Of a stretch of 64,000 nucleotides of DNA, positions 3,595 to 29,236 are shown piece after piece. The translations under genes and the position numbers were made by a program. Each line of letters starts with the position of its first letter. The first letter of the stretch is position 1. The stretch covers positions 496,001-560,000 of the forward strand of contig NZ_JAAOIE010000002.1 of NCBI RefSeq assembly GCF_011326755.1, read 5' to 3'. The notes below the pieces were generated by a model. It searched no databases, was not told where the DNA came from, and saw only the letters and a list, made by a program, of their open reading frames with translations. The DNA comes from Cochlodiniinecator piscidefendens (GTDB lineage: Bacteria > Pseudomonadota > Alphaproteobacteria > Rhodobacterales > Rhodobacteraceae).

Positions 3595-4737
3595 ATGACC
3601 ATGATAGATCAGAAAAAGGCCACCATCGCCGCGCAAGCCGCCGGTGCAATTGATCTGTCGACAGGTGGGGTCGTTCCGCCCATTCAGCCTTCTACAACCT
3701 ACGCCAGAGCACGTGACTACAGCCTACTGCAAGACGGAAATGTCTACGGGCGCGATAACAATGATGCCGTTCGACTGGCCGAAGAAATCTTGGCAAAACT
3801 CGAAGGTGCTGCAGAAGCGTTATTGTTTCCAACCGGCATGGCGGCAATTGCCGCTGTTTTTCGCACCATACCCAATGGCGGCACAGCGATTGTTCAATCC
3901 GGTATTTATTGGGGCACCACAAAATGGATACGTGATTTTTGCACCCGCCGCGATGTGACATTGCTTGAAGTGGATGCAAGCGATGCCGCGGCACTCGATG
4001 TGCTTTGTGCTGCGAATCCTGCCCATATCGTGTTTGTTGAAACCCCATCAAACCCGTGGCTTAAAACCGTTGATATCGCCAAAGCCGCCCAAAGCGCTCA
4101 TGCAGCAGGGGCGAAGCTTGTTGTAGACTCGACTGCGGCAACGCCAATCCTAATGCAGCCATTATCGATGGGCGCTGATATTGTCATGCATTCTGCAACC
4201 AAAGCGATTAACGGTCATTCAGATGTTTTGGGCGGCGTGTTGGCCACAAATAACGCAGACCAAACATGGCAAGACGTCGCTATTGATCGACACGATGCCG
4301 GGGCGGTCATAGGCCCATTTGAAGCATGGCTGCTGATCCGGGGAATGCGCACCCTACCCTTGCGTGTTGAGCGCATGTGCGAAAACGCGATGAAAGTCGC
4401 GCATTTCCTACAGGACCACCCGATAGTCGAGGGCGTCTTTTATCCCGGGCTACCAACCCACACAGGTTATGAGTTGGCGACACAGCAGATGGAAGGTGGA
4501 TATGGTTTCTTAATGTCTTTCCTCGTCAAAGGCGGGGCTGCTGATGCGCTTCAAGTCGCTGGTCGGTTAAACTTATTTCACCGCGCGACGTCACTTGGCG
4601 GGGTAGAAAGCCTTGTGGAACATCGCCATACAATTGAACCGCATACAGGTATCCCTGAAAATCTACTGCGTATTTCGGTTGGTATTGAAGACGCCCAAGA
4701 TTTGATCGATGATTTAGGTCAGGCGCTCGGGCAATGA
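3595..4737 (+). CDS. metC: Cys/Met-metabolism PLP enzyme (cystathionine beta-lyase-like)
   Basis: A 380-residue PLP-dependent enzyme of the Cys/Met metabolism family. It has the gatekeeping [10 protein letters not shown] segment (50-60), a PLP phosphate-binding loop FPTGMAAI (78-85), the substrate-pocket segment [12 protein letters not shown], and the PLP lysine in [12 protein letters not shown] (Lys203). In this family the enzymes cleave cystathionine or related thioethers, or perform gamma-replacement. The pocket residues here look most like the cystathionine beta-lyase/homologous aminotransferase branch of alphaproteobacteria, so the substrate is not certain. A good GGAG ribosome site lies just before the ATG. 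It is alone; truA follows after 46 nt and could be co-transcribed. Confidence 0.78.
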
Positions 4738-4783
4738 ACATGCGGGTGATTGCAAAGCCAAGCCCCGCGCGGTAAGCGAAGCC

Positions 4784-5572
4784 ATGGGACGTTATGCACT
4801 AAAAATCGAATATAACGGCGCGCCATTCCACGGCTGGCAGCGCCAAAAAGAACACGTATCTGTACAAGGTGCGATCGAGGATGCTCTGCGCAAACTTGAA
4901 CCTGATGTTCCGACGATTGTCGCCGCTGGCCGCACTGATGCCGGCGTTCATGGTACAGGCCAAGTGGCCCATGTGGATTTACAACGCCCATGGAAACCCT
5001 TCCGCCTGTCAGAGGCTTTGAATTTCCATCTAAAACCCAATCCAGTTTCGATTCTGGAGGCTGCAGAGGTTGGCGATGATTTCAGCGCGCGATTTTCAGC
5101 GATGGAGCGGCAATATCTATTTCGCCTCGTCAGCCGTCGTGCGCCTTTGTGTCATGATGCTGGGTTCGTGTGGCAGATTATGCACCCACTTGATCTTGAC
5201 GCCATGCGTGAAGGGGCAGCGCATTTAATTGGCCTGCACGATTTCACGACCTTCAGATCCGTTATTTGTCAGGCCAATTCTCCGGTCAAAACCATTGATG
5301 AAATTCGCATTGAACCCGTCGAAATTCCCTACGGGACTGAATATCGATTTCATGTGCGCGCCCGCAGCTTTTTGCATAATCAGGTTCGTAGTATTGTTGG
5401 CACACTCGCCCAAGTCGGTGCAGGACGTTGGATGCCTGATGATGTCAAAGATGCATTAGAAGCCCGAACGCGCAGTGCCTGTGGCACTGTAAGTCCCCCC
5501 CAAGGGCTGTACCTCGCACATGTTGTTTATCCTGAGGACCCATTCACAAATGGCGCGCACGAAAGGCACTGA
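4784..5572 (+). CDS. truA: tRNA pseudouridine synthase A
   Basis: TruA converts uridines 38-40 in the anticodon arm of tRNAs to pseudouridine. The 262-residue product has the family start [19 protein letters not shown], the catalytic motif [12 protein letters not shown] with nucleophile Asp52, and the C-terminal motif [13 protein letters not shown]. Length is standard. It follows the metC-like gene on the same strand. Its 3' end overlaps the converging tetR gene by 29 nt, so the two transcripts are antisense to each other there. Confidence 0.96.
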
Positions 5573-6155
5573 CCTCGTCTTGTGTTGGGGCTTTTCCGGT
5601 AAAGGTCTCGATGTAGGTCGGCATGCGTTCAACCCGTAAGGTTTTGGGTTCTTTCATCATCATCGCGATATATCCGACTTGGGTGTAATAGACTGTGGTC
5701 GCACGCGCAAATGCTTGGTCCCTGTCAAAACCATGTCGCACAAACATCTGAACAAGGGCGTCCATCCGCATTTGATCGACTTCGGTTAAGCGAGCCTTCA
5801 ACACATCTGATGTCTGAGCCCAATTGCGAATGGCAAAATCCAAACGCATATCGAACAAATCAACATCAAGCCAACAATCAAACAGATGAAAAATTGACTC
5901 TTCAATGGATTGCGACGGCTTTTGAGTTTGGACAACTAGGTTAGTCGTGTTTTTGCTTTCCCATCGGGCGATGAGGGCATCAAGGACGGCCTCTCGATGT
6001 TCAAAATGCCAATAGAAGCTTGGGCGTGACATACCAACAGCCTTTGCCAAGGCTTGAATCTTTACCGCTTCGACACCGCCACTGATCAACAAATCATAAG
6101 CTGCGTCCAACCACAAATCTGGGGAGCCGCGCCACCCTTTCGAATTTTGTTCCAT
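5544..6155 (-). CDS. TetR/AcrR family transcriptional regulator
   Basis: A 203-residue TetR-type repressor. The N-terminal helix-turn-helix is clear: [20 protein letters not shown] around residues 36-55. The C-terminal ligand-binding half ([20 protein letters not shown] and following) resembles other proteobacterial TetR proteins but names no ligand. It lies downstream of tauCBA on the same strand, separated by an intrinsic terminator, so it is probably a separate unit and not the taurine regulator (TauR is encoded elsewhere in the block). Its 3' end overlaps truA by 29 nt. Confidence 0.85.
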
Positions 6156-6217
6156 GCGCGTTGCCTATCACCACCAATCAGCTTTTCCAAGGGTAGACAC
6201 TTTTCCAAGGCCCAAAC

Positions 6218-6244
6218 AAAAAGGCGCTCCAAAGAGCGCCTTTT
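6218..6244 (-). terminator. Intrinsic terminator after tauC
   Basis: A 7-bp GC-rich stem, GGCGCTC/GAGCGCC with a 4-nt loop, is flanked by T-rich sequence when read on the minus strand (GGCGCTCTTTGGAGCGCC followed by TTTTTG). It sits 23 nt after the tauC stop. A run of T on the plus-strand side means it could act in both directions. Confidence 0.8.
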
Positions 6245-6266
6245 CAAATTCATACAATTGAAAAGA

Positions 6267-7547
6267 TCAACCGCGCCCTTTCCAAGGCACCAGGTATGCT
6301 TCCATTTTGCGCATCAGGATGTCGATGCCAAAACCGATGATACCAATCAGAACAATCCCCATGATAACAATATCTGTCAGCTGGAATTTTGATGCAGCAA
6401 CGATCATCTGACCTGCACCTTGTTCAGCCGCAACAAGTTCTGCCGCAACAACAGTACCCCAACAAACGCCCATCGCAACACGTGCACCAGTAAAGATTTC
6501 CGGTAGGGAGTTCGGGATAATGACATACCGCATGATCTGCCACTTAGAGGCACCCAAAGAATAGGCCGCGTGGATCTTAGTGATTTTCACACCAGACACA
6601 CCGGAGCGTGCAGCAATCGTCATAATCCATAGCGATGCAAGGAACAGCAAGAACAGCTTACCTTGTTCACCGATACCAAACCAAATGATCACAAGCGGGA
6701 TCAAAGCAAGCGGTGGCACAGGGCGCATAAATTCTACGATTGGATCGAACCAACCACGGAACCAGTTAGACAGACCCATTGCGTAACCCAATGGAATACC
6801 CACAATCGCCCCAAGTAGGAAACCAACGATAACCCGGAACAATGAGAACCCGAGATGCTCAGCCAAGGTAAAGCCACGATAGCCTTCAGCTGCAATCACG
6901 ATCAAACGGTTCCACACGTCTTCAGGAGCTGGAAGCCAGATTTTTTCCATCTGCCAGCCTGCTTCGGGTGAGAAACGAACAGTGCCACGACGTGACAATT
7001 CAACAAGCCCGGTGTCAGTCTGAACACCCGGTCCTTCAGGCTCAACAGCCTGGCCGTTGATTGCAACAACGCGGTAGCCATCCTGATCTTCGCCAACGTC
7101 GTTGTTGTTTGTACGAACAAGACCACCCCGGCCAGCACCCATTACGAATGAATCGTTTTGAGCAAAGCCTTCGCCACCGTCCACTTCTGGTGCTTCGATT
7201 TCTTGACCGATTGGATGCACAAGGATGCTAACAGTTGCATCGTCACGCTCACCTGCAGCGTTTTCAGCGGTATAGGTGAAAGAAGTGTCACCCAAGAACG
7301 GGCCGGGCGCGTGGAACGGTGTGATTTTGGAGCCCGTGAATGCCCCCCAAATCAAAAAGATAGCTACGATTGAAATAACCGACGCCGCACGGCTAGGTTT
7401 AACAGCACTTTCATCACCGAATGTCACTGTTTTAAGAGAGGTGTAATCGCTGCTTCCGTTTACAAAGCGCATTGCGATTTTCACCGCAAACATCCCGCCT
7501 ATGAAAATAGCTACATAGGTCAGAAAAATAATTATGCCGATGCTCAT
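6267..7547 (-). CDS. tauC: Taurine ABC transporter permease with periplasmic insert
   Basis: Inner-membrane permease of the taurine importer, about 426 residues, against about 275 for E. coli TauC. The C-terminal two thirds is an ordinary BPD permease: PAPEDVWNRLIVIAAEGYRG, then LGYAMGLSNWFRGWFDPIVE, and the EAA loop GASKWQIMRYVIIPNSLPEIF. The extra length is an N-terminal membrane segment, a second one near 55-72, and a periplasmic segment of about 115 residues. That segment contains FTYTAENAAGERDDATVSI, NDSFV, DGYRVVAINGQAVEPEG and GTVRFSPEAGW, which resemble cadherin-like/VCBS repeat strands. I start it at the ATG overlapping the tauB stop (ATGA). Function is supported by the tauABC-tpa-tauR-xsc context. 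Confidence 0.9.
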   Translation of the reverse strand: MSIGIIIFLTYVAIFIGGMFAVKIAMRFVNGSSDYTSLKTVTFGDESAVKPSRAASVISIVAIFLIWGAFTGSKITPFHAPGPFLGDTSFTYTAENAAGERDDATVSILVHPIGQEIEAPEVDGGEGFAQNDSFVMGAGRGGLVRTNNNDVGEDQDGYRVVAINGQAVEPEGPGVQTDTGLVELSRRGTVRFSPEAGWQMEKIWLPAPEDVWNRLIVIAAEGYRGFTLAEHLGFSLFRVIVGFLLGAIVGIPLGYAMGLSNWFRGWFDPIVEFMRPVPPLALIPLVIIWFGIGEQGKLFLLFLASLWIMTIAARSGVSGVKITKIHAAYSLGASKWQIMRYVIIPNSLPEIFTGARVAMGVCWGTVVAAELVAAEQGAGQMIVAASKFQLTDIVIMGIVLIGIIGFGIDILMRKMEAYLVPWKGRG

Positions 7548-8350
7548 GATGCGTCCTCCGTCCGGCCCATGATTTCCTCTTCCATATCCCAAATCATGCT
7601 GAGAATTTCATCGCGTGTTTCCGCAAAGCCGTCGGATTTTTTTACATCTCGCAGGTCCGCATCGACGCCACGTTCAGCAAATGGAAGACGGTATTCTTTA
7701 TGAACACGGCCCGGGCGTGGGGCCATAACCAAAAGACGTTCACCCAACAATAGCGCTTCTTCCACAGAGTGGGTAATCAGAATGATGGTTTTCCCGGTTT
7801 CTTTCCAAAGCTTCAGAACGAGGCTCTGCATTTTTTCCCGTGTCAGCGCATCAAGAGCACCAAGAGGTTCATCCATCAAGATCACATCAGGGTCGTTTGC
7901 CAAGCAACGTGCCAATGCAACCCGCTGTTGCATCCCGCCCGAAAGCTCATAAACAGCTTTTTCTTTGAAGTCCTGCAGACCAACGGTTTCTAACAAATGG
8001 TCAGTGATTTTATCGCGTTCGGCCTTTGGCATTCCCTTCATACGCGGGCCAAAGTCAACGTTCTCGCGAACACTCATCCATTCAAATAGCGCGCCTGCTT
8101 GGAAAACCATGCCGCGTTCAGCGTCAGGGCCTTCAACAAGGTGGCCATTTAATTCCATATTTCCTTCGGTTGGGGCCAAAAAGCCCGCAACAATGTTCAG
8201 AAGCGTTGTCTTACCGCAGCCCGATGGGCCAAGGATTGACAGAAGCTCCCCCTCTTTGATGTCCAATGACACGTCTTTCAACGCCTGAACGGAAGATCCG
8301 TTTGGCAGATCGAAGCGCATGGAAATACTGTTTAGTTTCAGCCCAGTCAC
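7544..8350 (-). CDS. tauB: Taurine ABC transporter ATP-binding protein
   Basis: The 268-residue ATPase of the taurine importer, working as a dimer on the cytoplasmic face of TauC. Walker A GPSGCGKT is at residues 41-48, signature LSGGMQQ at 136-142, Walker B VILMDEP at 156-162 and the switch histidine in ITHSVEEAL. It belongs to the nitrate/sulfonate/taurine ABC class. The start codon is GTG with an upstream AGGGG. It overlaps tauC by 4 nt and is separated from tauA by a 70-nt gap that contains a hairpin likely to reduce read-through. Confidence 0.93.
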   Translation of the reverse strand: MTGLKLNSISMRFDLPNGSSVQALKDVSLDIKEGELLSILGPSGCGKTTLLNIVAGFLAPTEGNMELNGHLVEGPDAERGMVFQAGALFEWMSVRENVDFGPRMKGMPKAERDKITDHLLETVGLQDFKEKAVYELSGGMQQRVALARCLANDPDVILMDEPLGALDALTREKMQSLVLKLWKETGKTIILITHSVEEALLLGERLLVMAPRPGRVHKEYRLPFAERGVDADLRDVKKSDGFAETRDEILSMIWDMEEEIMGRTEDAS

Positions 8351-8376
8351 AATGGGTACCCCTATGTTTCAGATAC

Positions 8377-8407
8377 AAAAAGGGCGGCATGTATCTGCAC
8401 GCCGCCC
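8377..8407 (-). terminator. Hairpin between tauA and tauB (partial terminator)
   Basis: On the minus strand the sequence forms GGGCGGC...GCCGCCC, a 7-bp GC stem with possible further pairs toward the loop, followed directly by TTTTT. It lies just after the tauA stop and before tauB. Such hairpins commonly let the binding-protein gene be expressed more than its permease and ATPase; that purpose is inferred. Confidence 0.7.
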
Positions 8408-8420
8408 AAATTGTAGTGGC

Positions 8421-9422
8421 TTACATATCTGATGCAGCAGAAAGTGCTGATGTATTTACAGCACCGTCATATGAAGAACGTGAGCCATCAATGTTCCCAG
8501 TTTCAACAAAGAAATCTGCAACTTCTTTAAGGAAGGTCTGAGTACCACCGCCAAGCCATGCTTCGCTCAATTGTGCTTCAACAGATGGGAATTCAAAACG
8601 TGCCAAAGTTGCCGCAGCATCTTCTTCGCTCATACCCGCGTCTTGTGCGATCACTGGCAGCATCTCTGCTGTATGTTCACCAGAGTTCCACATTGCGTTT
8701 GCATGTGCAGTGACAGCTAGGAAGTCTGCCAAAAGCTCAGGCTCTTCTTCGACAAAAGATGCAGAAGCTGATGTCACGTCAAAGACGTAGATGCCAAGTT
8801 CGGTTTTCTCAGCGCCGGTCAGCAATGTGTTGCCGTGCTCGGTCATGCGGCGCAGTGCACCACCCCAACCACACGCCATATCAAGCGAACCCTGTGCCAA
8901 AGCTGCCGCAGAATCCGCAGGCGCCATGTCAACAACTTCGAGTGTGGAAACGTCGATACCGAAGTGTTCCATTTGCTTCAAGAAACCGTAATGCGCCGCT
9001 GTACCGATTGGCACACCAATGCGGTGACCTTCGAGGTCTGCAACGCTGGCTGCGTCGATTTCGAGCGAAGAGTGCACAACGCAGTTATCGTTGTCTGCGT
9101 AGCTTACCGCAACATCAACAACCTGAAGGTCCTGACCCGCAGAAGCCGCGACAACGAATGGTGGAACACCTTGGCTTACAGCGATGTGAACATCACCTGA
9201 TGCCATCGCTGCAGACATTGCTGTGCCGGTGTCGAATGCACGCCAGTTTACGGTTACGCCGAGTTCTTCGTCGTAGGTGCCGTTGGCTTTTGCAAATTCA
9301 AATGGCATTGGCCATTCAAGAAAATAAGCAACCGTAATCTCGTCCAATGCCATTGCGCCGGTTGCCCCAGTGAGCATCGCTACGCCTGCAACTGTTCCGA
9401 AGATTTTGGATTTTACACTCAT
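8421..9422 (-). CDS. tauA: Taurine ABC transporter substrate-binding protein
   Basis: Periplasmic binding protein of the taurine importer, 333 residues. A signal peptide is clear: charged MSVKSK start, hydrophobic core, and cleavage likely after TGAMA. The mature start DEITVAYFLEWPMPFEFAK is typical of TauA proteins, and later segments (GVPPFVVAASAGQDLQVVD, GSLDMACGWGGALRRM) fit the taurine-binding branch of the NMT1/SsuA-like family. A good GGGAG ribosome site precedes the ATG. It is first in tauABC and divergent from tpa across a 535-bp regulatory gap. Confidence 0.93.
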   Translation of the reverse strand: MSVKSKIFGTVAGVAMLTGATGAMALDEITVAYFLEWPMPFEFAKANGTYDEELGVTVNWRAFDTGTAMSAAMASGDVHIAVSQGVPPFVVAASAGQDLQVVDVAVSYADNDNCVVHSSLEIDAASVADLEGHRIGVPIGTAAHYGFLKQMEHFGIDVSTLEVVDMAPADSAAALAQGSLDMACGWGGALRRMTEHGNTLLTGAEKTELGIYVFDVTSASASFVEEEPELLADFLAVTAHANAMWNSGEHTAEMLPVIAQDAGMSEEDAAATLARFEFPSVEAQLSEAWLGGGTQTFLKEVADFFVETGNIDGSRSSYDGAVNTSALSAASDM

Positions 9423-9957
9423 GTTTTTCTCCCGTGTTGGTGCCGTTTTCCGGCTTTGTATTCCCCTAATTATAGGGCAATGATTGATACGAAGTGATTT
9501 TTATCACTCCGAAATGCGTGCCCTTCGAATCTCTGTTCGAATTTTGCCCGCTGCATCCAAACCTAGATGTGCATAGTAAAATGCATATTAGGATCAGAGT
9601 AACTCGAATGTGCGTCGCTCCATAGTAAATTCACGACACCCAATGCTGAGCTTCATAAAACCGTAAGTGAAACGCGGTTTCAGTCAATGCTTTGATCACC
9701 AGTATATTGTGACCATCAATAAATTAATCTGCATCCTTTTGCGCTCAACTTTTATATATTATTCTTTTTTTTCAGAATATTAAAGATTTTAATTTTGCTC
9801 ATCGTTGTTTTCCTCACCACAATTCTGGACTTAACACCTTTCCACTCTGGCCCTAACGGTTCTGCTATCCATTCAACAAAGTTTCACAATAGAATATACG
9901 CGTAACTCTCAGCCTTCCGGGCCCAGCCCGCAAGACCTAACAAATGGAATCAGAACT
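9423..9957. other. Divergent tauA/tpa regulatory region
   Basis: A 535-bp gap without a credible gene. The half nearest tpa is strongly AT-rich (about 9700-9810, with a long T tract near 9765) and is followed by a pair of TauR operator repeats. The half nearest tauA holds the short direct repeat TTCGAAT (near 9524-9540). I did not find a second clear TauR repeat pair oriented toward tauA, so how tauABC is controlled is not visible here. Confidence 0.7.
9825..9856 (+). promoter_or_regulatory. TauR operator pair upstream of tpa
   Basis: Two direct repeats, CTGGACTTAA (9825-9834) and CTGGCCCTAA (9847-9856), start exactly 22 bp apart, i.e. about two helical turns. The first matches the published TauR-box consensus of Rhodobacter capsulatus, CTGGACYTAA, in all positions and the second differs at one. 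They end about 100 nt before the tpa start. The same arrangement recurs before xsc. Confidence 0.85.
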
Positions 9958-20473: not shown

Positions 20474-20492
20474 TAGACACGACATACCAAAG

Positions 20493-20524
20493 AAAAACCG
20501 GCGCTCATCCCGCCGGTTTTTTTT
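20493..20524 (+). terminator. Intrinsic terminator after soeC
   Basis: An 11-bp stem AAAAACCGGCG/CGCCGGTTTTT with a 7-nt loop runs into eight or more T. It lies 20 nt after the soeC stop. Confidence 0.92.
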
Positions 20525-20781
20525 GTTTCTTCAACAACGATCTTTCTTCGGTATGCACGAGATAGAATGTACAGCAGGAAATCCAATTTGTGGCGATGTC
20601 GGCTACGCCGGACTTTGCGGTCGTTCGCCTTTACACTTTGAATGGTTGCGTTTAAATTTTGCATTTGATCGTCAATTGACAAAGGCTTCGTGGAGCAGCG
20701 CAAATTCACTATGTACTCATGCGGTTGTCGATATCGTTTCTCCGAAGGCTCCTTCAACAGATTGACGCAATTGCCCAATTT
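20525..20781. other. Gene-free gap at the left edge of the tct island
   Basis: Between the soeC terminator and the universal stress gene I see no start with a ribosome site and no codon-like pattern. Composition is intermediate between the taurine block and the GC-rich island. It is a plausible island junction, but no att-like repeat or insertion-sequence end was found. Confidence 0.5.
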
Positions 20782-21603
20782 TCAATGCGCCAATAGCACA
20801 GGCACCTGCGTTTCCCTCAGAACATCCGTCGTAGCGCCACCAACAATGTCGTGGGAAAACTTACTGTGTTCAAAGGCGCCCATAACGATCAGGTTGACCT
20901 CTTTGGACTTGGAATAGGCCAAGACCGTTTCCGCGACACTGCCGTTCTGATCAACCGTGACAGCCGTCGCCACGACCCTATGCTTAGACAGGGTCTGCAC
21001 CAGCCAATCCGTATTGCGGGGTGTTCGGGACACCGATAGCAGAGCTACTTTCGCGCCCTGCTTTAAGATCGGCATGGCCGCAGCAACCGCGCATGTTGCG
21101 GCACGTTTCCCGTCCCAGGCGACAAGAACGTCGGCGACAGAGGACTCCGGTACTTCATGCCTTTCTGGAACAACGAGGACCGGTCGGCCACTGCGCAAAG
21201 CGATCAGATCGGGATTGGATGCGTAGTCATCTTCATAGACCGCACCTAGATGATGACCGATCACGACCAGGTCGAAGGTCCGAGCGAAGGAAGCAATAGG
21301 ACCGTTTGCCTTTGGGTCAAGCTCGACGAATTCGGCGCGATCTCCCAAGCCTTCTTCAACCGCCATTTCCAGAAACCGCGCCTTTGTATCTGCCATGGTT
21401 TTTTGGCCATTTGCGTCGAGCTGCGCGATGACCTGTCCAGGGAGATGCGCGGGTAGTTGACGATGGAGAAACCCGATGCCACCTCTTTTGGCGACGCCTG
21501 TCAGATGTGCGCCGTGGCGTTTGGCAAGCCGGCCAGCATGGCGCAGACCGCTGCCTTTGGACGGATCGCCACTATAGGCGCACAGGATGGACTTGATGCT
21601 CAT
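20782..21603 (-). CDS. Universal stress protein, two UspA domains
   Basis: A 273-residue cytoplasmic protein with two tandem Usp folds. The first begins IKSILCAYSGDPSKGSGLRH and the second ADVLVAWDGKRAATCAVAAA. The end of the second carries the ATP-binding style motif VMGAFEHSKFSHDIVGGATT. The start is the ATG preceded by GGGAGC; a 13-residue longer reading has no ribosome site. It is the last gene of the minus-strand tctC-tctAB-prpF-dehydrogenase run, with a 51-nt gap, so it may belong to that operon. Its role is unknown. Confidence 0.87.
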   Translation of the reverse strand: MSIKSILCAYSGDPSKGSGLRHAGRLAKRHGAHLTGVAKRGGIGFLHRQLPAHLPGQVIAQLDANGQKTMADTKARFLEMAVEEGLGDRAEFVELDPKANGPIASFARTFDLVVIGHHLGAVYEDDYASNPDLIALRSGRPVLVVPERHEVPESSVADVLVAWDGKRAATCAVAAAMPILKQGAKVALLSVSRTPRNTDWLVQTLSKHRVVATAVTVDQNGSVAETVLAYSKSKEVNLIVMGAFEHSKFSHDIVGGATTDVLRETQVPVLLAH

Positions 21604-21654
21604 TGGTTGCTCCCTGCATTTTGGGCCGGAGGTTCGTGGCAAGCCAAGGAAGGC

Positions 21655-22605
21655 CTATGGGCGCCAGACTTCCGGGTTGATCATGTGGATAGGATTGCCG
21701 CTCGCATAGGCGTTGATCTGGTCGAATATGTCACTGAATTGTAGGTCAAATTCGTCTTTGGTTACGTAACCCAGATGTGGAGTCGGCAAGACCTGCGGGT
21801 GCGAAATGTCTGTCAGCGGCTCTTGATCGAATACGTCAACAGCCACAAAAATACGCCATTTGGCGATTTCCTCCTCGAGCGCACCCGGTGCGATCAGCCC
21901 CGCCCTTGAGGTGTTCACAAGCAGGCTTCGCGGCGCCATTTGGGCGAGGTCATCGGCAGTAACGATTCCACGGGTCTCTGGCTTCAACCGAACATGAAGA
22001 CTGACGATATCAGAGCTGGCAAAAAACACCGCTCGGTCCTTTGCGAGGCACGCACCATCCGCTCGAACGCGCGCACGGCCGGCCTCGAAAGCCCACCATT
22101 GCACATGCAGCCCAAGTGCTTCGGCATAGCCCGCAACGGCTTTTGCAATGCGACCATATCCGTAGAGACCAAGCGTCCGACCCCGCATTGTTCTTCCAAC
22201 CCCAGCCTGCCATTTCCCGACCCGGATCGACGCCACCTGCTTAGGGATCTGCCGGTAGCTGGCGAGCATCAGGGCCAGGGTCATCTCAGCGGCTGCGTAG
22301 GAGGGTGTGTCGCTATGCATGTTCGAGCATAGGAGCACGCCGTGTTCGCTGCAGGCCGCCACGTCGACATGCGGATAGACACTGCGCTGCGAAATCAGGC
22401 GCAGGTTCGGAAGCTTTTCAAGAAGATTTCTCGATATGGCGGTCCTCTCCCGAAACAGCACAAGGCACTCCGCCACCCGCGTGGCGAGTTTCGCCGAGTT
22501 CGGCACATGATCGGACCAGATCGTAACCTCATGCGATGCCAGCTTTGAAAAGCAAGGCAGGCCGCGCAGCGTATCGAACCAGTCATCAAGGATATGAACC
22601 TTCAT
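21655..22605 (-). CDS. D-2-hydroxyacid dehydrogenase family protein
   Basis: A 316-residue NAD-dependent dehydrogenase of the phosphoglycerate/2-hydroxyacid family. The Rossmann motif TLGLYGYGRIAKAVAGYAEALG is near 144-166. The catalytic trio appears as Arg in NTSRAGL, Glu in DVFDQEPL and His in TPHLGYV. It would interconvert a 2-hydroxyacid and 2-oxoacid. The substrate is unknown; the neighbours (tricarboxylate uptake, PrpF/GalD-type isomerase) suggest a polycarboxylate. GC content is clearly higher than in the taurine block. Confidence 0.85.
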   Translation of the reverse strand: MKVHILDDWFDTLRGLPCFSKLASHEVTIWSDHVPNSAKLATRVAECLVLFRERTAISRNLLEKLPNLRLISQRSVYPHVDVAACSEHGVLLCSNMHSDTPSYAAAEMTLALMLASYRQIPKQVASIRVGKWQAGVGRTMRGRTLGLYGYGRIAKAVAGYAEALGLHVQWWAFEAGRARVRADGACLAKDRAVFFASSDIVSLHVRLKPETRGIVTADDLAQMAPRSLLVNTSRAGLIAPGALEEEIAKWRIFVAVDVFDQEPLTDISHPQVLPTPHLGYVTKDEFDLQFSDIFDQINAYASGNPIHMINPEVWRP

Positions 22606-22669
22606 TGGGTTTCATTGCCTTTCCAGATTAAGCGCGCAGCACGTATTCGGTCTGAATGGCGAACGTTGA

Positions 22670-23752
22670 TCAAATCACACCGGGTGGGATCATGACGTCG
22701 CCCCGCGCCAGAAGGCGGGCGGTGCGCACCAGCCCGGCGGACCGGATGGTGATATCCCCCCCGTTTCGCTCGAAATCCACAACCACATCGATGGATCCGC
22801 TCGGGTGCTCCAATACGATCGGCGCAGGGCTTTCTGACGGAGCCGTACAAAGGCCTTCAGCCACCGTCCCAGGGGTCAGCACACAGGATGCGAGGCATTG
22901 AGCGCCGGTCACGGCCATGGTCGGGTGGGCCGCCCATGGCATGAAATAACGAGTCGCGATTGTACCACCAGCACGTGGGCGGGCCAGAAGACCGAATTTC
23001 GGAGTGACCGACCGAGAAACGTCACCCATGCCCATCGCCCGCCCCGCGAGGCGCCGAACTGCTTCCATCCGTGAAAAGAGAGCTTTGTTTTCGTTCAACT
23101 CGCTGACTGTTTCATATCCGGTCACGCCAATATCTTCCGCCCGTGCGATCACCATCGGCATGGCAACATCCATGCAGGTCGCTTCGACGCTGTCGAATAT
23201 GTCGATGCGATTGCCCGTGGGTAGAAACGCTCCAGTGGCTCCGCCAACCGTCCCCATGAATTGCAAGCCAACAGGCGCGGCGTTTCCGGGCACGCCGTCA
23301 ATTTTTGTAGTGCCATCGTATCGCACACCACCATCCGGCGTTTGCACTTTGGCTTCGACCTGCGCACCAGTATTTACTGCGCGGATACGAATCGCCGTCG
23401 TCTCACCAGTTGGCTCAACCAGGCCCATCTCGATGGCCGCCGGACCAACGCCGGACAGGATGTTTCCGCAGGTCGGCTTGAAATCGACCTGACCATCCTC
23501 AACGCCAACCTGTGCAAAGAAGTAGTCAACATCTGCGTTACTGTCCTCCGAGCGTGACAGCATCGCAACCTTGGTCGTGACCGCGTTGCCGCCGCCGATC
23601 CCGTCGATATTCAGAGGATGGCCCGAGCCGATAGTGGCAACCAGCACGCGCGCCAGGGTTTCAAGATCATCAGGAAGATCACTGCGCTTGAAATACGGTC
23701 CGCGAGACGTACCTCCGCGCATGAACCAGAAGGGAATGTCCGTTTGTGTCAT
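22670..23752 (-). CDS. PrpF/GalD-type isomerase (4-oxalomesaconate tautomerase-like)
   Basis: A 360-residue protein of the PrpF family, with two diaminopimelate-epimerase-like halves. Seen: the family start FWFMRGGTSRGPYF, then IDGIGGGNAVTTKVAML, and PTCGNILSGVGPAAIEMG. Family members shift a double bond in unsaturated tricarboxylates (PrpF: aconitate isomers) or tautomerise 4-oxalomesaconate (GalD, gallate route). The sequence resembles GalD most, but no other gallate gene is present here, so the substrate is left open. It overlaps the tctAB stop by 4 nt, which ties it to the transporter. Confidence 0.85.
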   Translation of the reverse strand: MTQTDIPFWFMRGGTSRGPYFKRSDLPDDLETLARVLVATIGSGHPLNIDGIGGGNAVTTKVAMLSRSEDSNADVDYFFAQVGVEDGQVDFKPTCGNILSGVGPAAIEMGLVEPTGETTAIRIRAVNTGAQVEAKVQTPDGGVRYDGTTKIDGVPGNAAPVGLQFMGTVGGATGAFLPTGNRIDIFDSVEATCMDVAMPMVIARAEDIGVTGYETVSELNENKALFSRMEAVRRLAGRAMGMGDVSRSVTPKFGLLARPRAGGTIATRYFMPWAAHPTMAVTGAQCLASCVLTPGTVAEGLCTAPSESPAPIVLEHPSGSIDVVVDFERNGGDITIRSAGLVRTARLLARGDVMIPPGVI

Positions 23753-25776
23753 GTCAGCGGCCAGGGAAGATCAAAGTAGGATTGCAGCACGCCCGGCGGG
23801 AAGTCGCGGTTGAGCGTCGCAGCCATCGCGCAAATGAAAGCGATCCCGGCACCGGTGTAGAGCGTTGCATATCCCCAGGATTTACCCGCGCGATAGCGGA
23901 TGAAGCAGAGCAGGAATACCGCCAGCGCCAGGATGAAGCCAAGAATCGCCGTCAGGATGAGAAGCCCGCCAAACCAGGCCAGCGTCGCCCAAAGGCCGTA
24001 GGCATTGCTGTCACGATCCTCGACCTCCCGATCGGCAAAAAGCGGGTCAGTTTCGGGCTTCAGCCGCATCTTTAGCAGCAAAAGCGCGCAGCCGATCAAT
24101 CCGATGGTCGCAACGAAGACAGGGAAAACCCGGTCAGTTCGCGCGTAGTCGGGGATCATCGAGGCATCGGTATAGGCAATGGCAATATAAGCCGTGATCG
24201 CCAACAGAAATACTAACGGTGCACGCTTGCCACCTGAATTCACATCGCCCTCAGCCTGGATATTTTTCGCCTGTCGCAGGCCAAGGATGACTGAAAGCAA
24301 CGTGATGATGATCAGGACGATCACAATCGGGCTGAAGACATAGTCGAGCCCTTCTTCGAAGCTCCTGCGAAAGCGCGAGCTTGCGATCTGATAGGCCTGG
24401 TTCGTGTAGCGCTCGGCGGGTGCCGACAGCACGAAGCCGATCAGGAAAGCGGGGCGCGACCAGTCGAACCGGCGCATGAGAATACCGAGAAGCCCTATGC
24501 CGAAGAGGGCGACAAGATCCCAGATCGATTGGCGCGACTGGAAGGCTGCGAAGGCGATGATCATGAACAGGAACGGGGCCAGCAGCGCGAAGCGGATGTT
24601 CGTGAGCCGTGCAATTCCGCCTGCCGCACCGATGCAAATCAGCGTTCCGACGACATTGGCCAGCGCCAGAAGCCAGACGATGGCATAGGTGAAGTTGAGG
24701 TTGTTGTTGATCATCGAGGGGCCAACCTCGATCTGGCCGGTTCCAAGAAGTGCAACACCAGAGATGAAGATCGCCATCGAACCGGAGCCGGGAATACCGA
24801 AGAGGAGCGTCGGGACCAGACCGCCGCCTTCTTTGGCATTGTTGGAGCTTTCGGGGCCTACAATGCCCCGGATATCTCCGGATCCGAATTGAGATTTGTC
24901 TTTGGAGGTTTGCACCGCGTGGCCATAGGCGATCCAGTCCACCACGGAGCCACCGAGCCCAGGGATCACGCCAACGGCCACACCAATCAGGGAACAGCGT
25001 ACCGAAAGCCATTTATTAGCCCACCAATCCTGCACGCCGGTCAGCCAGCCGCCACCCAAAACCTGGCGATCCGAAATCGCTTTGTCCTGCCGCAGGAGCG
25101 CAATGATTTCCGGCACAGCGAATATCGCCAGGCCGACGATCACCAATTTGAACCCGTCCACTAGATAAGGCAGATCGTAGGAGGCCATACGCAGCTCTCC
25201 CGAGGCTGCGCCTTCGCCGATGGTTCCGATCAGAAGACCTAGACAGGCGGCAACAATTCCCTTGATGGCGACCCGACCGGCCAGAATGCCCACCATGGAG
25301 AGCCCGAAAATCGTGACCATCAGCAGCTCCGGCGTCTGAAACGCGAGCACGATGGGCCGGGCCGCCAGAATGAAAAATGTCAGAAAGGTAGCGCCGAGAA
25401 GCCCGCCAAATAGCGATGAGGAGAAGGCCGCTGACAAAGCTCGGGCGGCCTGGCCTTTTTTGGCCAGCGGGAAACCGTCAAGCACGGTTGCCTGGCTTGC
25501 CGATGACCCGGGTATGCCCATCAGCACGCTGGCAAAGGTGTCAGATGTTGGCACCACCGCCACCATGCCGACCATCAACGCGAGCCCCAAAAGGGGCTCC
25601 ATCCCGTACATAAACGGTAACAAAAGCGACAGGCCCGCAATCCCGCCGAGACCGGGGAAAACTCCGATACAAAGCCCCATCACGACGCCGAGCACCAGAT
25701 AACCTAAAACAATGGGGTTTAGGATCATGCCGAATGCGTCGCCAAGCGCAGGCATAGCGGTAGCGAAGAGTTCCAT
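23749..25776 (-). CDS. tctA: Fused TctA-TctB permease of a tripartite tricarboxylate transporter
   Basis: A 675-residue integral membrane protein. Residues 1 to about 500 are TctA, with the family motifs VLGVVMGLCIGVFPGLGGIA, MGIPGSSASQATVLDGFPLA and GIPGSGSMAIFISGVALLG and about 12 membrane segments. After a polar linker, the last 150 residues (LVFLLAITAYIAIAYTDASM onward, with FPVFVATIGLIGCALLLL) form the four-helix TctB-type small subunit, normally a separate gene. I start it at the ATG preceded by AGGAG. It needs the periplasmic TctC protein, whose gene lies just upstream but is frameshifted. Confidence 0.9.
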   Translation of the reverse strand: MELFATAMPALGDAFGMILNPIVLGYLVLGVVMGLCIGVFPGLGGIAGLSLLLPFMYGMEPLLGLALMVGMVAVVPTSDTFASVLMGIPGSSASQATVLDGFPLAKKGQAARALSAAFSSSLFGGLLGATFLTFFILAARPIVLAFQTPELLMVTIFGLSMVGILAGRVAIKGIVAACLGLLIGTIGEGAASGELRMASYDLPYLVDGFKLVIVGLAIFAVPEIIALLRQDKAISDRQVLGGGWLTGVQDWWANKWLSVRCSLIGVAVGVIPGLGGSVVDWIAYGHAVQTSKDKSQFGSGDIRGIVGPESSNNAKEGGGLVPTLLFGIPGSGSMAIFISGVALLGTGQIEVGPSMINNNLNFTYAIVWLLALANVVGTLICIGAAGGIARLTNIRFALLAPFLFMIIAFAAFQSRQSIWDLVALFGIGLLGILMRRFDWSRPAFLIGFVLSAPAERYTNQAYQIASSRFRRSFEEGLDYVFSPIVIVLIIITLLSVILGLRQAKNIQAEGDVNSGGKRAPLVFLLAITAYIAIAYTDASMIPDYARTDRVFPVFVATIGLIGCALLLLKMRLKPETDPLFADREVEDRDSNAYGLWATLAWFGGLLILTAILGFILALAVFLLCFIRYRAGKSWGYATLYTGAGIAFICAMAATLNRDFPPGVLQSYFDLPWPLT

Positions 25777-25851
25777 GACGGACTCCTGTCTTTCAGAATT
25801 TATTGGGCAAATTGCCCCCACAGCCCGAGGCCGCAGGGGGAGGAGAGGAGA

Positions 25852-26953
25852 TTACTGCAGCACGACGCCGTAGCGATCTGCGAGCCACTCGATCACATAT
25901 GTTTGCGCCTCTTCCGGCACATTGGTGGCGCCTTCCAGCGCGACCTGGGCTGCCTCGCTTGTCATCTGAGGATAGACGCCCAGGCGGGCCTGAGAGATCT
26001 CTGCGAAATCATCCCGTTCGGTGATGGCCCGGAAGGCAGCAGAATAAGTGTCGATCGCTTCCTGTGGTGCGCCTGCAGGCAAGAACACCATCTTCTGGGC
26101 TGGGAAGCCAGCCGTGAAGAAGGCGACCCAAGCATCCCAGGCCGGTCCGCTCGTCTCACAGCTCGGCGCGGCCTCGCACACTTCCGCGAAGCTCGGCATA
26201 TCCGGGAATGTGGGATCGCGAACGAGGTTGCCATCGGCATCTAGCGCTCCGAAGGAGAACCACGGAACGGCCGTTCCGGCTTCGACAAGTGGCGCCACGC
26301 CGGACAAGTATGAGGACGAGGTCTGGTAATCGATATTCGCTTCGCCGCGTTCGAACATCAGGCGCCCATCGCCCCGGCCTTCGATGCCGAAGACAGGCTC
26401 CACGTTGAGGCCCAGCAACTCCCACGCAAGAAGTGGCACAAGATCAAGCCGGGTTGCGCCCTGGCTTCCGTAAATGAAATTCTCCTCCAACAGCGCTTCC
26501 ACGCCTCCAGCCTCAAGCGCTGCCGCAAGATCGGCTGGAAGATAGGCTACGCCGCCAGTGCCGGAGGCCAAAACCACGTTCCAGTCCCCGTATTCATAGC
26601 GCACCCTCGGGTCATTCAGCAGGTATGGGAACTGGGTGGAGCCGGAAGATCCGAAGATCGTGGTTCCGTCATCATATTCCACCCCCTGGAAGTGGTTGGC
26701 CCCCCCGAGTGGATCCCGCGCCAGGCATGAAGGTCACGACAACGGTCGGGTTGCCGGGCAATGCTTCGCTCAAAAGTGGTGCGTAGAAATTGGCCCAACG
26801 CGCCGAGCCACCGGTTTCCGAGAATGGAATGATCCACTCTACGGTTTCCCCGGAAAGATCGAGACCATGGTCGTCCGCCAAAGCGGGCGATGCAAGACCA
26901 ATGGTCGAAACAGTGGCGAGAAGCGCTGCTGAGCGCTTGCAGAATATGTTCAT
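25852..26953 (-). pseudogene. tctC: Frameshifted tctC (TTT substrate-binding protein)
   Basis: The periplasmic tricarboxylate-binding protein is split over two frames. The first part starts at an ATG with AGGAAAA, has a signal peptide ending SPALADD, then VEWIIPFSETGGSARWANF and MPGAGSTRG. The second continues with NHFQGVEYDDGTTIFG through to GVVLQ. The break is a run of seven C (plus strand, 26700-26706); removing one base joins the frames into the family sequence STRGANHFQG. It is either a real mutation, a slippery tract, or a sequencing error. If real, the transporter lacks its binding protein unless another copy serves. Confidence 0.85.
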
Positions 26954-27081
26954 GTTTTCCTCCCAGAAAACAGGGTCTCCCAACCCTGCGTGTCTTTCAC
27001 TATCAGCCCAACAGAGCCGACTTGATACGGGCAACATTCAGTGCCATTCTTTCATGAACCTTTCATCGGAAAAAAAACTTC
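26954..27081. promoter_or_regulatory. Divergent tctC/tctD promoter region
   Basis: A 128-nt gap between the outward-facing tctC and response-regulator genes. It should hold both promoters and the regulator's binding site. No clear repeat pair stands out by eye. Confidence 0.45.
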
Positions 27082-27753
27082 ATGCGCATCGTCATAATAG
27101 AGGACAATGTTTCGGTCGCGAAAGGCATCGCTTACCGTCTTCAGGACGAAGGGCATGCTGTCGACCTTATTCATGACGGAACTGAGGCTGATCTCTTCCT
27201 GCGTGACGATGGTGGTGACCTCGTTATTCTCGACATCAAACTTCCGGGGCTAAGCGGGCTTGAGGTTTTGGCAGCCATGCGCGCCAGAGGAGACAACCGC
27301 CCGGTTCTGATGCTCACGGCGCAGTCTGAAATCAGCGACAAAGTGGTTGGCCTTGATGCAGGCGCTGATGACTACATCTCAAAACCGTTTGAATTGGATG
27401 AACTTAGCGCACGCATTCGCGCCCTGAGCCGACGACCGCAATGGGTAGACCCGGGTTTGCTGAGCATCGGGCCGCTCAAGTTCGATCCGGTTGCGCGTGC
27501 CCTTTTTGGCCCTGATGGTGATCTTTCTGTACCACGTAGAGAGGTTTCGCTGTTCGAGACGCTGCTAACGGCAAATGGCCGCTTCGTGTCAAAACAGGCG
27601 TTGCTTGACGCCTTGTACGGAACCGGCAGCGATGTCGACGAGTCGGTTGTGGAGGTTTATGTTTCTCGCCTGCGCAAACGGCTCAAGGCTTTCGACGTGG
27701 ATATCTCCGTGCGACGCGGCATTGGCTATGCAATGTCAGAGTCTGACCGATGA
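27082..27753 (+). CDS. tctD: OmpR-family response regulator (TctD-like)
   Basis: A 223-residue response regulator. The receiver domain has the acidic pair in IIEDN, phosphorylation site Asp51 in LVILDIKLPG, the Thr in MLTAQSE and the conserved Lys in ISKPFE. The C-terminal OmpR/PhoB winged helix ends VVEVYVSRLRKRLKAF ... VRRGIGYAM. It is divergent from the tct operon and overlaps the sensor gene by 4 nt, so it most likely activates tctC-tctAB expression, as TctD does for tricarboxylate uptake in enterobacteria. Confidence 0.9.
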   Translation: MRIVIIEDNVSVAKGIAYRLQDEGHAVDLIHDGTEADLFLRDDGGDLVILDIKLPGLSGLEVLAAMRARGDNRPVLMLTAQSEISDKVVGLDAGADDYISKPFELDELSARIRALSRRPQWVDPGLLSIGPLKFDPVARALFGPDGDLSVPRREVSLFETLLTANGRFVSKQALLDALYGTGSDVDESVVEVYVSRLRKRLKAFDVDISVRRGIGYAMSESDR

Positions 27754-29117
27754 CACGGGGCTTTTCGCTTCGCCTGCGGCTCACAATCATCATTCTCATC
27801 CCGCTTCTGCTGATCTCGGCCGCCGTTGCATTTTGGGCGGCCAATGATGCCCAGGCCCGTGCTGCCGACCGGTTTGACCGATCCCTGCTGGTCACCGCCC
27901 TGAGTATTTCCCGTGACACCGCCATCAGCGGCGGCGACGCTCTGAGCCAGGAAACGCGTGATCTGCTACGTAATACCTCGGGCGGGCCGGTTTTCTACCA
28001 TGTCTATGCCCCCGATGGTGTTTTCGTCACAGGTTACGCGACACCGCCTGTTCCCCCCGGAGATCTCGGAGCCGAGGCTTATATATACTTCGACGCACGG
28101 TATCTCGGGCATTCGGTGAGAGCGGTCCGGTATTCAGAACACCTGGAAATTGACGGGCTGGCGGGCCAATTCACCTTCACTGTTTGGCAAAACCTGTCAT
28201 TGCGGGATGGATTTGTTCAAAGCCTGTCGCAACGCACTTATGCCGTCATGGCCACTCTTGTCGCCGCAGTTGCCTTCATCGTCTGGTTCGGCGTGCGGGT
28301 CGGGCTTCGCCCACTGTTGGACCTTGAGCGTGCCATCGAACGCCGTTCTGCGCAGGATCTGACCACGATCAAGCGGGCGATCCCCGAAGAGGTCAAAGGC
28401 GTCGTTGGCCGACTTAACGAGTTGCTGTCGGAAATGTCAGCGACAATCCGCGCTAAAGACAGCTTCATTTCTGATGCCGCTCATCAATTGCGCAACCCTA
28501 TCGCGGGTGTGCTGGCCCTGTCAGAAGCTGTCGCAACTTCAAAAACGGAGGCGGATTTCAAAACCCGAAGTGCCGATCTTGTCGAAGCTGCCTCACATGC
28601 TGCCAAGCTGTCCGAAGACCTTTTGGCCTTTGAACGAGCGCGCTCTGCCCCTTCCTTCGAAAACCTGCCGGTTGTGAACATAACTTCGACACTGGCTAGC
28701 ATCGTCACACGTTTGCAGCGCGAAGCTACGATCCGCGATGTACGGTTGCAGCAAATGACAGATCCCGGCCCGGCCTTTGTGCGTGCCGATGCGCTGCTAC
28801 TTGAGCAAGCCATCGAAAACCTCGTGACAAACGCTTTTTCCCATGGCGGAGGGCAGCTGACGGAAGTCCGTGTGCAACTTAAAGCGGAAAGCCACCATGC
28901 CATCATTACTGTCTGCGATGATGGCAAAGGCGTTGAGGCAAAGGAATTCGAAACAGCGCTGTCTCGGTTCGGTCAGGCCATCCCCGGCTCTGGCAGCGGT
29001 CTGGGTTTGCCCATCGCAAATGCTGTCGCAGAGGCTCACGGTGGGCGTTTGGATCTTTCAAATTGCAATCCGGGTCTCTTGGTACGGATTATTTTGCCGA
29101 TGGCGAGCTCATGCTAG
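27750..29117 (+). CDS. tctE: Sensor histidine kinase (TctE-like)
   Basis: A 455-residue membrane sensor kinase. It has an N-terminal membrane segment (LRLTIIILIPLLLISAAVAF), a periplasmic domain of about 130 residues of the TctE type (FYHVYAPDGVFVTGYATPP), a second membrane segment near 165-185, and HAMP-like sequence. Then come the HisKA box SDAAHQLRNP with His245 and the ATPase motifs NLVTNAFSHGG, CDDGKGVE and GSGLGLPIANAVAEAHGG. It should sense the substrate of the neighbouring transporter and phosphorylate TctD. Confidence 0.9.
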   Translation: MTRGFSLRLRLTIIILIPLLLISAAVAFWAANDAQARAADRFDRSLLVTALSISRDTAISGGDALSQETRDLLRNTSGGPVFYHVYAPDGVFVTGYATPPVPPGDLGAEAYIYFDARYLGHSVRAVRYSEHLEIDGLAGQFTFTVWQNLSLRDGFVQSLSQRTYAVMATLVAAVAFIVWFGVRVGLRPLLDLERAIERRSAQDLTTIKRAIPEEVKGVVGRLNELLSEMSATIRAKDSFISDAAHQLRNPIAGVLALSEAVATSKTEADFKTRSADLVEAASHAAKLSEDLLAFERARSAPSFENLPVVNITSTLASIVTRLQREATIRDVRLQQMTDPGPAFVRADALLLEQAIENLVTNAFSHGGGQLTEVRVQLKAESHHAIITVCDDGKGVEAKEFETALSRFGQAIPGSGSGLGLPIANAVAEAHGGRLDLSNCNPGLLVRIILPMASSC

Positions 29118-29236
29118 CACCCGGCACAGACAAATCTCTGCCGAAATGATCTCTCTCGATTCCTCAGACACTTTTTTCCGAAAGCTGCCATTTGTGCACA
29201 ACGCAGCATTTATCGAGGTGGGCTCAAACCAGCCAT

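Follow-up and report, generated by a model that had tools for sequence, protein, structure and literature searches.

The present study concerns a window of 64,000 nucleotides (nt) from Cochlodiniinecator piscidefendens (contig NZ_JAAOIE010000002.1, positions 496,001 to 560,000 of the forward strand) and a block of seven genes within it. The block codes for a tripartite tricarboxylate transporter (TTT), a PrpF-family isomerase, a D-2-hydroxyacid dehydrogenase, a universal stress protein and a TctDE-type pair of regulators, in a host genome of 3.7 Mb. Gene order and sequence divergence indicate that the block was most likely acquired horizontally as one unit, because its site is empty in three related genomes and its genes show lower synonymous divergence (dS) from Nioella ostreopsis than the flanking genes do. 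Our data are best accommodated by an acquired catabolic module for the uptake and isomerisation of an acid of the aconitate/tricarballylate class. This function is proposed at slightly under even confidence, with both the substrate and the direction of the reaction argued from analogy.

Insertion and composition of the block

The inserted block extends from 20474 to 29236, between dmsC (end 20473) and znuB (minus strand, 3' end 29237). When the two flanking genes were searched for in 120 genomes of the family, znuB was matched in 110 (E 1e-60 or better) and dmsC in 90 (E 1e-40 or better); by reading the two lists together, both were found in 83 genomes, the host included. In three of those 83 (G036, G003 and G142) dmsC and znuB are direct neighbours with a gap of less than 100 bp, and in G036 several genes on each flank are collinear with the window. 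In the host genome the distance between them is 8.76 kb and is filled by the cluster. The sequence-only reading had called the region an island, and with an empty site in three genomes the term holds in its strict sense. In another genome, G126, dmsC and znuB are also about 7 kb apart, with none of the cluster genes in between. Related loci were compared as the best 80 of 262 encoding loci; they were picked by similarity and are not independent of each other. In counts among them the denominator is the number of loci long enough to judge. In several high-GC loci the genes were called with a caller scored on GC content at third codon positions (GC3) together with tblastn. In none of the 80 does dmsC or znuB lie beside the cluster.

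Divergence from Nioella is in line with gene order. The dS values are 0.53-0.97 for the cluster genes and, in the six genes of the flanks that were tested, range from 1.36 up to saturation; they are 1.66-2.49 for fdhAB and 1.74 for dmsC. The formate dehydrogenase operon was considered as a further part of the transferred block and rejected, because its dS resembles that of the other flank and because fdhA and the cluster lie on separate contigs in Nioella (330 kb and 138 kb). No tRNA is present in the 64-kb window and no integrase among the open reading frames (ORFs) of the cluster, and a search for repeats at the borders gave no long flanking direct repeat, only short pairs, mostly of low identity. 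In Nioella, a transposase-like ORF was seen by eye about 0.6 kb past the tctE end of the cluster (L002:2132-2989), and it could be a means of mobility. On a contig labelled as a Desulfobulbaceae metagenome bin (L079), prpF, tctAB and the binding protein are present with identities of 64-68%, which would reflect either distant transfer or mis-binning.

The base composition of the block is also distinct. GC content is 58.1% and GC3 63.3% in the cluster (mean of the seven genes), against 53.4% and 53.7% in the 34 other genes of the window (Mann-Whitney, p = 0.0003 for GC and 0.001 for GC3). The elevated GC noted earlier was thus confirmed, and GC3 is raised as well. Codon usage did not deviate clearly; it was discarded as proof of foreign origin, as the distances of the cluster genes (4.5-8.3) overlap those of the other genes (5.96, standard deviation 1.08). 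Genes, strands and coordinates of the unit bear out the earlier description of five minus-strand genes with a divergent TctDE pair. The spacing is operon-like, with a 4-nt overlap between prpF and tctAB and remaining gaps of about 48-75 nt. A divergent intergenic region of 128 nt (26954-27081), which is presumed to be regulatory, separates tctC from tctD.

Conservation of the cluster and its proposed function

The sequence-only reading had proposed looking for the same cluster in other genomes, and the arrangement turned out to be conserved in Rhodobacterales rather than scattered. Upstream of prpF lie tctAB (74 of 75 loci), the binding protein (71 of 72), tctD (67 of 70) and tctE (65 of 68). 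Downstream, hadh (the dehydrogenase gene) is present in 67/75 and usp in 19/75, together with genes for an AbrB-type membrane protein (47/63) and a GntR protein (48/63). A TcuA-type gene occurs within 9 kb downstream in 49/63 loci and TcuB in 21/61. Among 22 further loci of the same phylum, ten of which came from a phylum search that had 13 matching genomes besides the host, prpF, binding protein and tctAB occur together in 20, the exceptions being L112 and L113. A minimal form, a LysR gene beside prpF-tctC-tctAB, is found in six loci of another class of the phylum (L146-L151) and in one of the same family (L154). The binding protein is patchily distributed, being present in 12 of 61 genomes, the host included, in a search of 60 relatives.

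The membrane part of the transporter is encoded by tctAB (23749-25776, minus strand), a fusion of TctA and a probable TctB. Its ORF opens at 25821 and the conserved start is at 25776. The TctA model PF01970 is matched at 368.6 bits (cut-off 28.9), and the TctB model PF07331 reaches 24.9 bits in the C-terminal part of the protein, which is under its cut-off of 29.1. The protein is 97% identical to that of Nioella. Reported substrates of TTT transporters are citrate, isocitrate and cis-aconitate (PMC13390454).

The periplasmic binding protein, tctC (25852-26953, minus strand), needs a profile and a fold to back its name, because neither the window protein alone nor its Nioella homologue matched any Pfam or NCBIfam model. 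In the PDB, a profile built from 28 relatives picks up BugD at 2e-8 and further TctC proteins; PF03401 is matched by 17 of these 28 family members at E values up to 10. The predicted structure of the Nioella homologue has a mean confidence score (pLDDT) of 88.9. Judged by title, its 17 best fold matches are all chains of the Bug/TctC type, among them the periplasmic transporter 2dvz, a terephthalate-binding protein, MatC with malate, and BugD. The binding protein is therefore of the Bug/TctC type as modelled on the Nioella homologue. Proteins with the Bug fold bind different acids, so the fold does not tell the ligand. In L113 (G047, 4143-9751), at least three tandem copies of a tctC-type binding protein lie directly upstream of one tctAB.

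On the plus strand, the TctD-like response regulator (27082-27753) carries PF00072 and PF00486; its best NCBIfam model is TctD NF012023 at 196.6 bits, under the cut-off of 337. The TctE-like sensor histidine kinase (27750-29117) carries PF08521 (2CSK_N), PF00512 and PF02518. For BctC and BctE, it is reported that the sensor kinase can be activated by the TctC-type protein in its loaded state (PMC9602780).

The isomerase gene prpF (22670-23752, minus strand; PF04303 at 333.6 bits) codes for a protein closer to E. coli YbhH (6otv, 352 bits) than to GalD (6p3j, 286 bits) among solved chains. In a tree of 34 proteins YbhH groups with the L150 and L151 enzymes (97/95) and the window enzyme with those of Rhodobacteraceae (100/100), while GalD forms a clade with the L152 enzyme and a second L123 enzyme (100/99) from which the window enzyme is excluded; not all forks joining these three groups are supported. 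On these comparisons the isomerase is a member of the YbhH-like PrpF subfamily and not a GalD orthologue. It keeps Lys61 and Cys95 in motifs that are read as those of Lys73 and Cys107 of Shewanella PrpF, a correspondence taken from the motifs and not from structure. In Shewanella, whose PrpF isomerises trans-aconitate, both residues are indispensable in vivo (PMC5690661).

The neighbourhood adds a link to tricarballylate. TcuA of Salmonella converts tricarballylate to cis-aconitate (cited in PMC10468695), and on the TcuA-type genes of two relatives the model for TcuA, NF006130, reaches 532.8 and 679.4 bits (cut-off 369). A precedent is given by TarA of Bacillus velezensis, a PrpF-superfamily member assayed as aconitate isomerase, whose partners are an importer and a LysR activator (PMC11495376). 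The TcuA neighbour, the TarA precedent, the substrates of TTT transporters and sensing by BctC and BctE together lead us to favour uptake of an aconitate/tricarballylate-class acid.

In such a module TctC would capture the acid in the periplasm. TctE would sense either the loaded TctC, as we infer, or the acid itself, and TctD would activate the divergent promoter. The fused TctAB would import the acid, and the YbhH-like enzyme would shift its double bond by means of Lys61 and Cys95, most likely from trans- to cis-aconitate, which aconitase could then bring into the tricarboxylic acid cycle. In the relatives, TcuA and TcuB would oxidise tricarballylate, the saturated acid, to cis-aconitate beside the same transporter. 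The dehydrogenase would probably convert a 2-hydroxy acid resembling isocitrate to the corresponding 2-oxo acid and back.

A number of observations weigh against this assignment. In 14 of 63 loci, and again in 14 of the 22 further ones, no TcuA was found close to the cluster; the block of the host does not contain it either. The dehydrogenase does not fit clearly into the route, and its gene is missing in 8/75 loci. By their titles, the fold matches of the binding protein include binders of dicarboxylates and aromatic acids, and the ligands that TctC-type proteins can bind range from dicarboxylates and aromatic acids to alginate oligosaccharides (PMC13390454). The isomerase also passes NF033377, the NCBIfam model for 4-oxalomesaconate tautomerase (463.1 bits, cut-off 440), and L152 (G425) has the transporter, with identities of 69% and 66%, inside a cluster for oxalomesaconate. 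As to TcuA, the host has a copy (76%) at C12:659841-661211, with TcuB beside it and about 134 kb from the block. Its context there differs from that in the relatives: TcuA and TcuB adjoin genes which by eye are for a thiamine-pyrophosphate enzyme, an amidase-like and an oxidoreductase-like protein (L099:8749-12875, C12 ~658.7-662.9 kb).

State of the block and possible other substrates

One alternative concerns the state of the block and not its function. The copy in the window may be dead or dying, with transport lost through tctC and hadh starting to drift, and we regard this as a real possibility, though a somewhat less than even one. The sequence-only reading missed that tctC is split into two ORFs (26672-27037 and 25852-26682), whose frames part at seven consecutive G (26700-26706). 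By comparison, the 71 homologues recovered from the relative loci all have one uninterrupted frame, 358-370 residues long. When 398 genomes were searched with a profile, 14 had a match (E 1e-30 or better), in two pieces only in the host and in one piece in the other 13, and no second binding protein of the tctC type was found in the host genome. Uptake may thus have been lost in the host, as tctC is frame-shifted in the assembly. On the other hand, an error of one base in the homopolymer would give the same picture, and the ratios of nonsynonymous to synonymous divergence (dN/dS) against Nioella are low in all genes: 0.026 for tctAB, 0.073 for prpF, 0.081 for hadh, 0.085 for tctD, 0.118-0.127 for tctE and usp, and 0.088 and 0.044 for the N-terminal and the other half of tctC. 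Both halves of tctC have been under purifying selection, so the lesion would be either a recent loss or an assembly error of one base. With such ratios throughout, old pseudogene decay of the whole block can be dismissed. A programmed frameshift was likewise ruled out, because the G run is absent from four relatives (L002, L003, L035 and L053).

The dehydrogenase gene hadh (21655-22605, minus strand; PF02826 and PF00389, closest solved chain 3gg9) bears upon both the state of the block and its substrate. In an alignment of 13 sequences the window protein has lost 2 and about 5 residues in lineage-specific deletions and differs at positions that are invariant in the 12 relatives, which weakly suggests a real relaxation. 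An ORF of 85-97 residues that overlaps the start of hadh is conserved between prpF and hadh in 27 of 75 evaluable loci and is absent from the window; it has no match in Pfam or NCBIfam (L053:10088-10381, L017:10120-10377 and others). The usp gene (20785-21606, minus strand; PF00582 at 56.9 bits) is the last of the unit, and its product is 79% identical to that of Nioella.

It could also be that the module handles another polycarboxylate, such as a methyl- or hydroxy-aconitate or an isocitrate isomer, with the dehydrogenase at its centre and a sequence of isomerisation, hydration and oxidation of a 2-hydroxy acid. The high frequency of hadh among the relatives speaks for it, as do certain neighbours. 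In L153, which has no hadh, prpF is followed by a dehydrogenase of the isocitrate/isopropylmalate type; L126, whose only hadh is distant (34%), has one between tctAB and prpF; and L112 carries a PrpD-type gene. These neighbours give a hint, by analogy, that hadh could act on an isocitrate-like 2-hydroxy acid. Yet besides the loci already mentioned, hadh is missing from six of the seven minimal LysR loci, while in the seventh, L147, the sole match is remote (30%) and lies in another part of the locus, and no dedicated hydratase is conserved across the loci. On balance this alternative is unlikely, though not negligible. Uptake followed by a double-bond shift, as first proposed, remains the best reading, but the three-step route that was to include the dehydrogenase is a guess, because hadh is absent from some loci and isocitrate/isopropylmalate-type dehydrogenases stand beside prpF in two.

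A route through 4-oxalomesaconate, in which the isomerase would be a GalD-type tautomerase and the transporter would bring in an aromatic acid, pyrone dicarboxylate or a ring-cleavage product, is improbable. Apart from the match to NF033377, its best case is L152 (4657-12388), where the same transporter is accompanied by a dioxygenase of the glyoxalase/ring-cleavage type, a PIG-L protein, a GalD-like tautomerase (532 bits) and, at 372 bits against a cut-off of 304.5, a 4-carboxy-4-hydroxy-2-oxoadipate aldolase; in L123 a second, GalD-type PrpF protein lies near the cluster. But the L152 enzyme is nearer GalD (544 bits) than YbhH (321 bits), which is the reverse of the window enzyme. TIGR02798, the model for the aldolase that completes this route, exceeds its cut-off in only one of eight genomes tested and reaches 29.3 bits in the host, where hydratase and dioxygenase were not searched for. 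The version of the earlier proposal that invoked 4-oxalomesaconate thus finds no footing in the host, with the aldolase under its cut-off and the isomerase YbhH-like. The L152 transporter itself is a candidate for the oxalomesaconate route. NF033377 covers GalD-clade and YbhH-like enzymes alike (window 22670-23752; L152:7020-8075; L123:17538-18593), so the name "4-oxalomesaconate tautomerase" over-predicts. It spans at least two separate PrpF subfamilies, and pathway predictions made from the name can mislead.

Relation to known systems

On sequence grounds the parts of the cluster are of known kinds while their combination is new, with the substrate resting on analogy. No description of this gene set was found in the open-access literature of PubMed Central, covered mostly as titles and beginnings of abstracts. 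The tarRAB authors, in their Discussion, call for further trans-aconitate transporters (PMC11495376), and the cluster offers a concrete and conserved candidate with its own binding protein. It also places the uncharacterised YbhH branch in a genomic setting. A bolder view is that the cluster is a binding-protein-dependent TTT counterpart of tarRAB for the uptake and isomerisation of trans-aconitate or tricarballylate, which horizontal transfer has spread among marine Rhodobacterales; its YbhH-like enzyme would be an aconitate isomerase, and its dehydrogenase would catalyse a step not yet described. Taken as a whole this is doubtful; if true, it would give YbhH enzymes a function.

The likeness to tarRAB lies in a PrpF-superfamily isomerase beside a dedicated importer and a regulator, and the minimal loci L146-L151 and L154 even have a LysR gene, as TarR is (PMC11495376). 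However, the importer of the window is a TTT system with a periplasmic binding protein and not the major facilitator superfamily protein TarB, its regulator is TctDE and not the LysR-type TarR, and the window adds a dehydrogenase and usp. With the Salmonella tcu operon (tcuA, tcuB, tcuC; PMC10468695) the cluster would share its substrate class, as we infer, and homologues of TcuA, and partly of TcuB, lie beside it in the relatives; in the host, unlike in tcu, these two are outside the block (C12 ~658.7-661.2 kb), and the window has an isomerase. GalD belongs to the same PrpF family and has the Lys and Cys motifs, but it falls in a separate clade and its partner aldolase is the one found below cut-off in the host. 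E. coli YbhH, the closest solved relative of the isomerase, is paired with the putative carboxylate transporter YbhI, which resembles a 2-oxoglutarate/malate translocator and not a TTT system (PMC9068703); no proven substrate of YbhH is stated in the available part of that source. Among TTT systems (TctCBA; BctCBA with BctE, PMC9602780) the cluster has the usual TctA, a Bug-type TctC and a divergent TctDE pair, together with a probable TctB. It departs from them in that TctA and the probable TctB are fused, and in a binding protein so divergent that even the Nioella homologue escapes the Pfam models.

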